From Chitinophagaceae bacterium (GTDB lineage Bacteria > Bacteroidota > Bacteroidia > Chitinophagales > Chitinophagaceae), in NCBI GenBank assembly GCA_018335935.1, contig JAGXRG010000073.1:1-34969 (forward strand): 34,969 nucleotides of DNA. Direction: 5' to 3'. This document shows, piece after piece, positions 29,900 through 32,548 of this stretch. Under the pieces are notes generated by a model. The model was not told where the DNA came from, searched no databases, and worked only from the letters and a program-made list of their open reading frames with translations. The position numbers were made by a program, and so were the translations under genes. Each line of letters starts with the position of its first letter. Positions within the stretch are counted from its first letter, which is position 1.

Positions 29900-32548
29900 A
29901 TGAGTGCAATAAGTAAAAATTTTGATCATCAACAAGCCGATGCATTTTGGTATCAGCATGCATTAAATAAAGGATATTTCAATAGTACGCCAGACGAACG
30001 TGAACCTTACACTGTTGTAATTCCTCCCCCAAATGTAACAGGAGTGTTACACATGGGGCATTGTTTAAACAACACTATTCAAGATATATTAGTTCGTAGA
30101 GCAAGAATGCAAGGTAAAAATGCTTGTTGGGTTCCGGGTACAGACCATGCTTCAATAGCCACAGAAGCTAAGGTAGTAGCCATGTTGAGAGAAAGAGGAA
30201 TTACAAAATCATCATTAACTCGTGACGGATTTTTGCAGTACGCTTGGGAATGGAAAGAAAAATATGGTGGCATTATTTTACAACAATTAAAAAAGCTGAG
30301 TTGTAGTTTAGATTGGAATAGAGTAAACTTTACAATGGATGAGGACTACTATAAATCTGTCATTAATGTATTTATAGATTTATACAATAAAGGTTATATC
30401 TATCGTGGTAAAAGGATGATTAATTGGGATGTGAAAGCCTTAACCGCATTGAGTGATGAAGAAGTAATTAGAAAAGAAACACATCAAAAATTATATCATC
30501 TACAATATCAAATTGTTGATGCAGGAGGTAACACATTAAATGAAAAAATTACGATTGCAACTGTACGACCTGAAACTATAATGGGTGATACAGCAATTTG
30601 TGTTCATCCAAATGATGCTCGTTACAAACAGCTTCATGGAAAGTTTGCCATCGTTCCTCTTATCAACAGAAAAATACCTATTATTTGTGATGATTATGTA
30701 GCTATGGATTTTGGTACTGGTGCTTTAAAAGTAACACCAGCACATGATATGAACGATTATCAATTAGGCCAAAAACATAGCTTAGAAGTAGTTGATATTT
30801 TTAATGATGATGGAACTTTAGGAAATGATGCACAAATTTTTATTGGTGAAGAAAGATTTGAAGCACGTAAAAAAATTGTGGTTGAACTTGAGGAAAAAGG
30901 ATTTTTAATAAAGACAGAAGACTATACCAGTGAAGTGGGTTATAGCGAAAGAACAGATACTGTTGTTGAACCAAGATTGAGTTTGCAATGGTGGGTTGAT
31001 ATGAAGAAAATTACTGGTCCTGCTTTAGATGTGGTGATGAATGATGAAATAAAATTTCATCCTACAAAATTCAAAAATACCTACAGGCATTGGATGGAGA
31101 ATATTAAAGACTGGTGTATTAGTCGTCAGTTGTGGTGGGGTCATAGAATTCCAGCTTGGTACGACGAGCAAGGAAATTTTGTTGTTGCAGCTACTGAGAC
31201 AGAAGCTATTGAAGCATATAAAAAGAAGTACGGTCAACTGTCGACTGTCGACTGTAAACTTTCTCAAGATCAAGATTGCCTTGATACCTGGTTCTCTTCT
31301 TGGCTTTGGCCTTTTGAAGTATTTAAAGGATATAGTAATCCCAATAATGCAGAAGTAAAATATTATTATCCAACCAATACATTAGTTACAGCACCAGAAA
31401 TTATTTTCTTTTGGGTAGCTAGAATGATCATGGCTGGAGAAGAATACATGCATCAAATTCCTTTTAAAGATGTTTATTTTACAGGAATTGTTCGTGATAA
31501 ACAAGGCAGAAAAATGAGCAAAAGTTTGGGCAATAGTCCAGACCTTTTAAACCTCATTGATAAATATGGTGCAGATGCTGTTCGTTTTGGAATTATGATT
31601 GCTTCACCTGCGGGAAACGATTTATTATTCGATGAAAGTAGCTTAGAGCAAGGCCGAAACTTCAATAATAAATTATGGAATGCCATGAAATTGGTGAAAA
31701 TGTGGGATGAAAGACAGTCGACCGTTGACAGTCGACCGTCGACAGAAGAAACGGACTTTCCTACTTTTTGGTTCACTAACAGATTAAATGAAGCCAAACA
31801 AGAAGTTGAAACTTTAATGAATCAATTTCAACTGAGTGCTGCATTAAAAGTAATTTATAGTTTAATTTGGGATGACTTCTGTAGCTGGTATTTAGAATGG
31901 GTGAAACCTGGTTTTGAACAACCCATTGAAGCAAAAACTTTTGAATCAACTATCAGCTTCTTTGATGAGTTGTTGCAAATGCTTTCTCCTTTCATGCCAA
32001 ATATTACAGAAGAGATTTATCATCAATTGAAAGAAAGAGATCATGATTTAACAGTAAAACTTCAGTCAACCGTTGACAGTCAACAGTCGACAGTTCTTGA
32101 TCAAGGAAAACTTTTAAAGAATGTGATAACTACATTAAGAGAAGCACGAGCAAAAAATCAGTTAAAACCAAAAGAAGAAATTAAGTTATTTATTCAAACA
32201 CAGCAACCACAAGCGTTTCAATTTATTCAATCCATTCTTGCCAAACAAATCAATGCTTCAGAAATTAGTTTTGTAAACGAAAGCGTTGCAAATACTATTG
32301 TTGTTGCCATAGAAAGCGATAAGTTTTATATAGAATCAGAAAAAGAAATTGATACAGCTGAGTTAAAAGAAAATTTATTAAAAGATTTAGAGTATCAAAA
32401 AGGATTTTTATCATCTGTAATGAAAAAGTTAAGTAACGAAAAATTTGTTGCCAATGCAAAATCTGAGGTATTAGCAAATGAGCAAAAGAAAAAAGATGAT
32501 GCAGAAGCCAGAATTAAAACCATTGAAGAAAGTTTAGCCAATTTATAA
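29900..32548 (+). CDS. valS: Valyl-tRNA synthetase
   Basis: An 882-aa class I aminoacyl-tRNA synthetase that charges tRNA-Val. The HIGH motif is at PPPNVTGVLHMGHCLNN (42-58), the CP1 editing domain spans the middle, the tryptophan-rich DTWFSSWLWPF follows, and KMSKS is at 538-542 (GRKMSKSLGNSPDLL). The anticodon-binding and C-terminal coiled-coil arm complete the chain; length is normal for the family in Bacteroidota. The odd feature is three in-frame stretches encoded by a GTCGAC-type heptamer repeat, at residues 445-454, 606-616 and 722-733 (QSTVDSR-like peptides), all in variable loops away from the signature motifs. The gene starts 90 bp after the glycosyltransferase gene, with its own -7 box, and ends 9 bp before the acetyltransferase gene. 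Confidence 0.95.
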   Translation: MSAISKNFDHQQADAFWYQHALNKGYFNSTPDEREPYTVVIPPPNVTGVLHMGHCLNNTIQDILVRRARMQGKNACWVPGTDHASIATEAKVVAMLRERGITKSSLTRDGFLQYAWEWKEKYGGIILQQLKKLSCSLDWNRVNFTMDEDYYKSVINVFIDLYNKGYIYRGKRMINWDVKALTALSDEEVIRKETHQKLYHLQYQIVDAGGNTLNEKITIATVRPETIMGDTAICVHPNDARYKQLHGKFAIVPLINRKIPIICDDYVAMDFGTGALKVTPAHDMNDYQLGQKHSLEVVDIFNDDGTLGNDAQIFIGEERFEARKKIVVELEEKGFLIKTEDYTSEVGYSERTDTVVEPRLSLQWWVDMKKITGPALDVVMNDEIKFHPTKFKNTYRHWMENIKDWCISRQLWWGHRIPAWYDEQGNFVVAATETEAIEAYKKKYGQLSTVDCKLSQDQDCLDTWFSSWLWPFEVFKGYSNPNNAEVKYYYPTNTLVTAPEIIFFWVARMIMAGEEYMHQIPFKDVYFTGIVRDKQGRKMSKSLGNSPDLLNLIDKYGADAVRFGIMIASPAGNDLLFDESSLEQGRNFNNKLWNAMKLVKMWDERQSTVDSRPSTEETDFPTFWFTNRLNEAKQEVETLMNQFQLSAALKVIYSLIWDDFCSWYLEWVKPGFEQPIEAKTFESTISFFDELLQMLSPFMPNITEEIYHQLKERDHDLTVKLQSTVDSQQSTVLDQGKLLKNVITTLREARAKNQLKPKEEIKLFIQTQQPQAFQFIQSILAKQINASEISFVNESVANTIVVAIESDKFYIESEKEIDTAELKENLLKDLEYQKGFLSSVMKKLSNEKFVANAKSEVLANEQKKKDDAEARIKTIEESLANL
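31233..31260 (-). repeat. GTCGAC heptamer repeat, copy 1 (inverted)
   Basis: Four tandem 7-bp units: GTCAACT, GTCGACT, GTCGACT, GTAAACT. Read on the minus strand they become AGTTTAC, AGTCGAC, AGTCGAC, AGTTGAC, the same unit as copies 2 and 3, so this copy is inverted relative to them. It encodes QLSTVDCKL in valS, just before the conserved QDQDCLDTWFSS segment. Confidence 0.85.
31713..31745 (+). repeat. GTCGAC heptamer repeat, copy 2
   Basis: After a partial unit GACA come GTCGACC, GTTGACA, GTCGACC and GTCGACA, showing a 7-bp period and a 14-bp super-period. It encodes QSTVDSRPST in valS. The unit is far richer in GC than the codons around it. Confidence 0.88.
32063..32093 (+). repeat. GTCGAC heptamer repeat, copy 3
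   Basis: Units GTCAACC, GTTGACA, GTCAACA and GTCGACA follow a leading CA. It encodes QSTVDSQQSTV in valS and has the same orientation and reading frame as copy 2 (both read CAG TCN ACC GTT GAC AGT). Confidence 0.87.

Follow-up and report, generated by a model that had tools for sequence, protein, structure and literature searches.

Three heptamer arrays within valS

The stretch of DNA analysed here (the window) is a 34,969-nucleotide contig, JAGXRG010000073.1 (C73), of a Chitinophagaceae bacterium whose assembly, GCA_018335935.1, comprises 2,859,413 bp in 79 contigs (completeness 99.91, contamination 5.62; genome G000 below). Its forward strand carries valS (29900..32548), an open reading frame (ORF) for a valyl-tRNA synthetase of 882 residues that has the Pfam domains tRNA-synt_1, Anticodon_1 and Val_tRNA-synt_C and 1gax as its closest solved structure. 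Most of the closest named relatives of this ValS in the genome collection come from Chitinophagaceae (Lacibacter, Sediminibacterium, Ferruginibacter and metagenome-assembled genomes). An earlier note on this sequence had reported three arrays of 7-bp units inside valS, and these arrays are real.

Each unit is a degenerate palindrome, GTYRAC, followed by one free spacer base, and the spacing is exactly 7 bp in all arrays. Array 1 (31233..31259, residues 445-454) has four GTNNAC units, GTCAAC, GTCGAC, GTCGAC and GTAAAC, the last of which is one base off GTYRAC, with spacers T, T and T. Array 2 (31717..31743, residues 606-615) has the GTYRAC units GTCGAC, GTTGAC, GTCGAC and GTCGAC with spacers C, A and C, and array 3 (32065..32091, residues 722-731) has GTCAAC, GTTGAC, GTCAAC and GTCGAC with spacers C, A and A. 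Among the congeners of G000 (G001, G002 and G003), an array orthologous to array 1 is present in G001 and a degenerate one orthologous to array 2 in G002; array 3 occupies an overwritten loop of constant length. No strand is assigned to the arrays. Because units of this class turn into units of the same class when reverse-complemented, the earlier description of array 1 as inverted has little meaning. Every frame on both strands yields the peptide cycle V-[ND]-x-[QR]-x-[SL]-T, the exception being stops where heptamer position 3 is T. A QSTVDSR-type peptide had been ascribed to arrays 2 and 3; the peptide type is correct, but its restriction to those two is not, as array 1 encodes QLSTVDCK, a peptide of the same type.

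By residue position, all three arrays lie outside the HIGH, DTWFSS and KMSKS motifs of the enzyme (HMGH at residues 51-54, DTWFSS from 462 and KMSKS from 538), as had been stated. An AlphaFold2 model of ValS (40 sequences; mean predicted local distance difference test score, pLDDT, 71.5) has low confidence at the array segments. In this model array 1 is in coil, the region of array 2 (604-619) is coil except for one bridge residue, with pLDDT below 50 at 609-617, and array 3 is in coil ahead of a helix that starts at 730, overlapping its first two residues. A scan of the window for four-unit blocks with at most three mismatches over the 16 scaffold bases returned only the three valS arrays and their one-unit-shifted overlaps, in agreement with the earlier statement that the window holds no further copy.

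A genome-wide family of mixed arrays

Across the genome, the pattern GTYRACNGTYRACNGTYRAC (GTYRACNx3) has 38 matches, compared with 0 for a reversed-pattern control, and the free-centre pattern GTNNACNx3 has 49, again with 0 in the control. The heptamer is therefore far more common than chance predicts. Homogeneous tandems of AGTCGAC had 0 matches. The matches in G000 make up 18 arrays and two contig ends. Fourteen of the 18 arrays have four units, two have three and two have five. Unit centres are pyrimidine-purine (YR) in 64 of 72 units, and the spacers are near uniform (T 15, G 14, A 14, C 11). All but one of the arrays lie inside reading frames, the single exception being between genes at C13:192534; this is no clear excess over the usual coding density of bacteria. 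The earlier observation was thus right and its extent underestimated: there is a short palindromic repeat dispersed among coding loops. That the repeat seeks such loops, as had also been proposed, is an unnecessary assumption, because selection among random landings would yield the same pattern.

Besides the three arrays in valS, the arrays in genes comprise three in metG, two in a B12-binding/MeaB/mutase fusion gene, and one each in hutU, gcvP, the gene for methylmalonyl-CoA mutase, a PaaA_PaaC-family gene, lpxB, the class II ribonucleotide reductase gene, gcpE, the gene for a 2-oxoacid dehydrogenase acyltransferase and that for a protein with a secretion C-terminal tail. The two contigs concerned, C28 and C48, end inside homogeneous (CGTTGAC)n (loci L020 and L022), with at least 14 units on C28, a long intergenic array being the probable reason why the assembly stops there. 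A single loop of gcpE holds adjoining arrays of two classes, GGAATTG beside GTYRAC (L310, 3050-3097).

Arrays lengthen or overwrite protein loops

We compared the loops that carry arrays with the same loops in relatives. At the hutU site, 26 of 29 relatives have 17 or 18 residues, whereas G000 and two others have 26 and one has 38; against the Bacillus subtilis-type urocanase 2fkn there is a nine-residue gap at the array. The hutU array is therefore an in-frame gain of nine codons (+27 nt) with an empty site in relatives, the pattern that characterizes Rickettsia palindromic elements. In metG, loop 1 has 29 residues in G000 and 21-23 in all 29 relatives, and loop 2 has 26 compared with 24 in 14 of 29 relatives (range 18-34). 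The length of ValS loop 3, 21 residues, recurs in all 119 other proteins compared and in 93 of the 105 other genes, which implies that array 3 replaced sequence without changing its length. For ValS loops 1 and 2, relatives range from 18 to 104 and from 19 to 36 residues, and G000 is within the range. None of the net length changes (0 in valS loop 3, at least +18 nt, and +27 nt in hutU) corresponds to a slippage step of 7 or 21.

The same loops in relatives do not encode the same residues by other codons; close relatives either lack the array or carry other heptamers there. In the hutU loop, G003 has an orthologous array, G010 (a genome of another genus) has an unrelated heptamer-like block of the ATTCACC type with the same nine-codon gain, and G002 has a different palindrome. 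None of the three metG arrays of G000 was found as a GTNNAC array at the same loops of the three congeners. In the C-terminal loop of class II ribonucleotide reductase (25, 24 and 25 residues in G000, G001 and G002, with near-identical flanks), the heptamers are GTYRAC-type in G000 (L175:4402-7830), GAAACRA in G001 (L313:2240-5704) and GTAAAC-type in G002 (L314:11-3406), so that three congeners have two heptamer classes at one place. Other palindromes also occur in frame at these loops, CCCTCCAAAGGAGGG in metG loop 3 of G002 (L203) and ACCTCCTTTAGGTGGT in its hutU loop (L224); the loops thus accept more than heptamers.

Genes were scanned for windows in which at least 17 of 20 bases match those a fixed distance away, for distances (offsets) from 3 to 21. 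Over 112 valS genes, where period 7 with its multiples is nearly the sole repeat period, offset 7 gave 20 windows in 15 genes, offset 14 gave 8, offset 21 gave 2, offsets 8 and 18 gave one each and the other 14 offsets none. The valS arrays 2 and 3 of G000 fall under this identity threshold because their units differ. The period-7 windows are in loop 1 in nine genes, loop 2 in three, loop 3 in one, at residues 207-216 in one and before the start of the alignment in one. In sets of 30 genes each, metG gave 9 windows at offset 7, 4 at 14, 1 at 21 and 0 elsewhere; lpxB, with one N-run excluded, gave 3 at 7, 2 at 8, 2 at 14 and 1 at 16; and hutU gave 0 at 7, 2 at 14 and 1 at 6. In 235 kb of G000 (the window and ten stretches chosen irrespective of repeats; periods 2-30) there were 8 windows at 7, three each at 8 and 14, and one each at 12, 15, 21, 24 and 27.

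The valS units are lineage-specific: GTYRACN, AAAATTC, GAAACCA, GAAACGG, GATTSAC, AAATCTC, GCCAACT, GTCAACA, TCAACAA, GAGTCGG, GTCAATG and GTCATCC. A palindrome rule for all classes was discarded, GAAACNN and AAATCTC in relatives not being palindromic. GAAACNNx4 has 14 matches in G016, one each in G001 and G002 and none in nine other genomes, showing that unit classes differ between lineages. One valS loop of G016 (L058) has two classes, GAAACGG near GATTSAC. An identical 26-nt GAAACNN array is found in two genes, hisS of G002 (C149:13516-13541, L312) and nrdJ of G001 (C57:3814-3839, L313); chance may explain this, as each unit of that class has only some one variable base.

A 7-nt register for the conserved GT..AC scaffold

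Three orthologous array pairs can be aligned by codon: valS array 1 (G000/G001), valS array 2 (G000/G002) and hutU (G000/G003). Of their 21 differences, 17 are at heptamer positions 3, 4 and 7 (17 of 36 cells) and only 4 at positions 1, 2, 5 and 6 (4 of 48 cells; P = 0.00015 in a shuffle that keeps codon position), and the differences number 5, 10 and 6 at codon positions 1, 2 and 3. Conservation of the GT..AC scaffold thus runs with a period of 7 nt whatever the codon phase. Three of the four scaffold differences are in G003, where no other such array occurs. The scaffold is kept either by selection on the DNA or by replacement with other family members, and the two are inseparable here.

Distribution among relatives, the phylum and viruses

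Among 59 genomes (G000 and 58 relatives), eight have GTYRACNx3 matches. The counts are free of control matches in G000 (38), G002 (43), G010 (30) and G001 (9), and are weak or fail the control in G007 (1, control 1), G023 (1, control 4), G027 (1, control 0) and G029 (5, control 17). The congener G003 has no GTYRACNx3 match, and its count for GTNNACNx3 is 1, compared with 49, 19 and 54 in G000, G001 and G002. Four units is the commonest size among the fetched arrays of the other rich genomes as well (10 of 19 in G002, 10 of 20 in G010 and 3 of 6 in G001), and nine of the 20 G010 arrays are in no ORF of at least 100 residues. Many arrays of G002 and G001 (L059-L075) are near the C terminus of type IX secretion-tail-like proteins, one of them confirmed by Pfam Por_Secre_tail.

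In a phylum sample, 20 of 395 genomes have matches, largely to homogeneous (GTTGACA)n, which makes the sample hard to read because such arrays match the reversed control as well. Mixed arrays outside the family were found in this sample in G248 (11 matches), G130 (2), G325 (1) and G168 (1). The reversed control itself, CARYTGNx3, is frequent in some Bacteroidota genomes without GTYRAC arrays (for example 124 in G424, 46 in G275 and 39 in G173), which hints at another palindromic heptamer class. Carriage by phages was considered and dropped; 19 viral stretches have GTYRACx4, all of them with one or two kinds of unit.

We also followed the earlier suggestion that a transposase of the type associated with repetitive extragenic palindromic (REP) elements might be present. 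Y1_Tnp (PF01797) matches do occur, in 18 of 21 genomes, but they include G003, and none of the 8 loci fetched from the 38 matches listed has a GTYRAC array; one of them, L288, has a window of another heptamer. Clear Y1_Tnp genes (E < 1e-16) are present in all four GTYRAC-rich genomes, with weak matches only in G003, and also in array-free genomes such as G004, G005 and G018. G016 has five Y1_Tnp matches, and about 0.8 kb separates one of them from a GAAACNN array. Linkage to a REP-associated tyrosine transposase (RAYT) was dropped as not demonstrated by the eight fetched loci, with this one near case. By eye, the clear Y1_Tnp gene of G000 (L284, C57 at about 165168-165512) is apparently followed, in the same intergenic stretch, by further partial copies of its own flanks.

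Block copying and alternative origins of the arrays

The explanation that we favour, tentatively and at close to even chances, is that lineage-specific heptamer blocks of about 27 bp are copied from locus to locus as a whole and patched into permissive protein loops; it ranks ahead of a selected binding site, which in turn ranks ahead of growth by slippage. A block would consist mostly of four degenerate palindromic heptamers, each GTYRAC plus one free base. Its movement would involve templated copying, such as template switching or break repair, perhaps aided by a helper enzyme, and it would replace or lengthen loops in frame. Loops would be hit because only landings there survive, and the long intergenic arrays are possible donors. 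This reading is based on the occurrence of one unit class in 18 arrays, their peak at four units and the position of 17 of them in frame; on the unchanged length of valS loop 3, the nine codons gained in hutU and the conservation of GT..AC across codon phases; and on the other heptamer classes that fill the same loops in relatives.

The similarity of units was assessed by shuffling in the 16 G000 arrays with four or more of them. Adjacent units are identical in 13 of 48 cases, compared with 10.0 expected after shuffling (P = 0.17), whereas arrays at different places form 12 pairs with at most three differences, compared with 5.6 expected (P = 0.009). In G010 (15 arrays) there are 35 alike pairs where 9.1 are expected. 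Adjacent units in G002 gave P = 0.23. Set beside heptanucleotide simple sequence repeats (SSRs) and short tandemly repeated repetitive sequences (STRRs), the arrays share the tandem 7-nt units, and neighbouring copies resemble one another more than expected in G010 but not detectably so in G000. A hairpin constraint on spacers 1 and 3 was rejected, these being pairable in 4 of 15 arrays in G000 (5.9 expected), 7 of 13 in G002 (5.6) and 4 of 15 in G010 (5.3).

Several observations weigh against block copying. The copying signal in G000 is modest and comes from an array-pair test at one distance cut-off, and G002 (13 distinct arrays) has no such signal, with 5 alike pairs where 5.1 are expected. 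Adjacent units in G010 are identical in 23 of 45 cases (14.7 expected, P = 0.003) and adjacent spacers in G002 are alike in 11 of 26 (6.5 expected, P = 0.039); together with the homogeneous (CGTTGAC)n at contig ends, these indicate that slippage acts somewhere. Neither a donor or intermediate nor a target-site duplication or an enzyme came to light. Nor are GTYRAC blocks stop-poor, a fraction of 0.50 being stop-free in one frame compared with 0.65 for random 27-mers, which rules out a lack of stops as the reason for their survival in genes; because of this, that survival needs selection. The GT..AC constraint, seen in three arrays, could equally mean selection on a recognition site.

Such selection is the core of the closest rival, in which a DNA-binding protein recognizes GTYRAC (a HincII-type sequence) at 7-bp spacing, selection maintains the arrays as its sites, and their location in genes is incidental. 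The concentration of ortholog differences at positions 3, 4 and 7, the YR centres, the free spacers and the four-unit peak would all follow from it. We nevertheless consider it unlikely: the arrays are patchy, with a single GTNNACNx3 match in the congener G003, those of G000 metG have no GTNNAC counterpart at the same loops of three congeners, the host genes look random and one gene can hold two or three arrays, unrelated heptamers fill the same loops in relatives, and replacement by another family member gives the same pattern of differences. Slightly less likely again is heptamer slippage, whereby the polymerase would prefer 7-nt slips, as has been proposed in work cited in the available parts of PMC4679880 and PMC4692102, and arrays would start at chance seeds, lengthen there and persist in loops if the net change preserves the frame. 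It accounts for period 7 as nearly the sole period in the valS genes and for the greater homogeneity of the G010 and contig-end arrays. However, local growth does not explain one unit class at 18 places, similarity among the units of a G000 array does not exceed that after shuffling at P = 0.17, the sharp four-unit peak is unlike a slippage length distribution, and the net length changes in the tested cases are not multiples of 7 or 21. Slippage growth, which the earlier note had entertained, is accordingly not supported as the main route in G000.

A REP-type family moved by a Y1 transposase (RAYT or IS200-like) would match the palindromic units, the 27-bp size, the dispersal, the clear Y1_Tnp genes of the four GTYRAC-rich genomes and the GAAACNN array near one such match in G016. 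The eight fetched Y1_Tnp loci, none with a GTYRAC array, and the clear Y1_Tnp genes of array-free genomes make it improbable. Convergence at the protein level, with STVDSR or LTVNGQ selected as a loop peptide, is highly improbable: coding arrays do yield similar hydrophilic peptides, but the constraint tracks the 7-nt register and not codons, and the same class occurs outside genes, at C13:192534 in G000 and in nearly half of the G010 arrays.

A more far-reaching form of block copying, which we regard as doubtful, is that an undescribed process in Bacteroidota writes preformed blocks in a 7-nt register in trans, each lineage with its own heptamer 'alphabet', and overwrites the same loops of essential enzymes, often without change of length. 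A telomerase-like reverse transcriptase such as DRT10 was rejected as the writer, as it adds 9-nt repeats and the available part of its description makes no mention of heptamers (PMC12632851); no genome search was aimed at such a gene.

Relation to known repeats

Rickettsia palindromic elements are longer, single hairpin elements of about 100-150 bp. They resemble the present arrays in being palindromic repeats within coding sequence that add peptide, and differ from the G000 blocks of about 27 bp made of period-7 units. One cyanobacterial STRR unit, CAACAGT, is the rotation GTCAACA of the GTYRAC class. A 7-nt period is common to the arrays, heptanucleotide SSRs and cyanobacterial STRRs (the latter two cited in PMC4692102 and PMC4679880), but those two are taken as homogeneous slippage repeats, whereas G000 units are mixed and the arrays behave as blocks. 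PARCEL elements, as far as the available text describes them, are likewise coding palindromes that add peptide, with each copy having its own sequence; they encode amphipathic domains of membrane-associated proteins and have no heptamer array (PMC2996958), unlike the G000 arrays in enzyme loops such as those of valS, metG and hutU. REP elements (PMC3733652) are palindromic, 20-40 bp long and dispersed, as are the arrays; they are associated with Y1 transposases, for which the eight fetched loci gave no link to GTYRAC arrays.

The nearest likeness is to the heterogeneous heptamers of Xanthomonas, (GGGANTN)n, and Nostoc, GGGGAYT, which in the available part of the source are dispersed, have fixed and free positions, have mostly four units and show no tie to a gene class; their four-unit size is there tied to G-quadruplexes (PMC4692102). 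Those repeats are G-rich, whereas the G000 arrays are palindromic, and GTYRACN units have no run of three G on either strand and so lack the G-tracts of a quadruplex. The four-unit size in a class without G-tracts speaks against G-quadruplexes as its general cause. The same part of the source places 89-93% of the Xanthomonas heptamers between genes and 7-11% within them (PMC4692102), an intragenic avoidance that the G000 arrays do not share. TAACTGA repeats, which the available text reports from Beggiatoaceae, Cyanobacteria and five Bacteroidetes, with other heptamer arrays beside them in the Bacteroidetes, are also lineage-patchy heptamer direct repeats; unlike the G000 arrays they have one exact unit, are mostly intergenic and upstream of start codons, and bring stops in forward orientation (PMC4679880). 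Searches of the open-licence literature brought to light no account of heptamer patches, whether GTYRAC or other, in coding loops of Bacteroidota.

The arrays represent a repeat family that rewrites loops of essential proteins under a constraint tied to a 7-nt register of the DNA whatever the codon phase. They provide a test case against the quadruplex explanation of four-unit heptamers, and they turn the question of why heptamers are favoured as a bacterial repeat into one that can be tested with strain collections. If blocks are written in trans, repeat DNA, and not point mutation, would rewrite homologous loops, and the four-unit size would be a property of the writer and not of G-quadruplexes. 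Where Bacteroidota proteins have stretches resembling STVDSR, NEKQETRNE or KIQNSK, these may be repeat DNA and not conserved peptide motifs.

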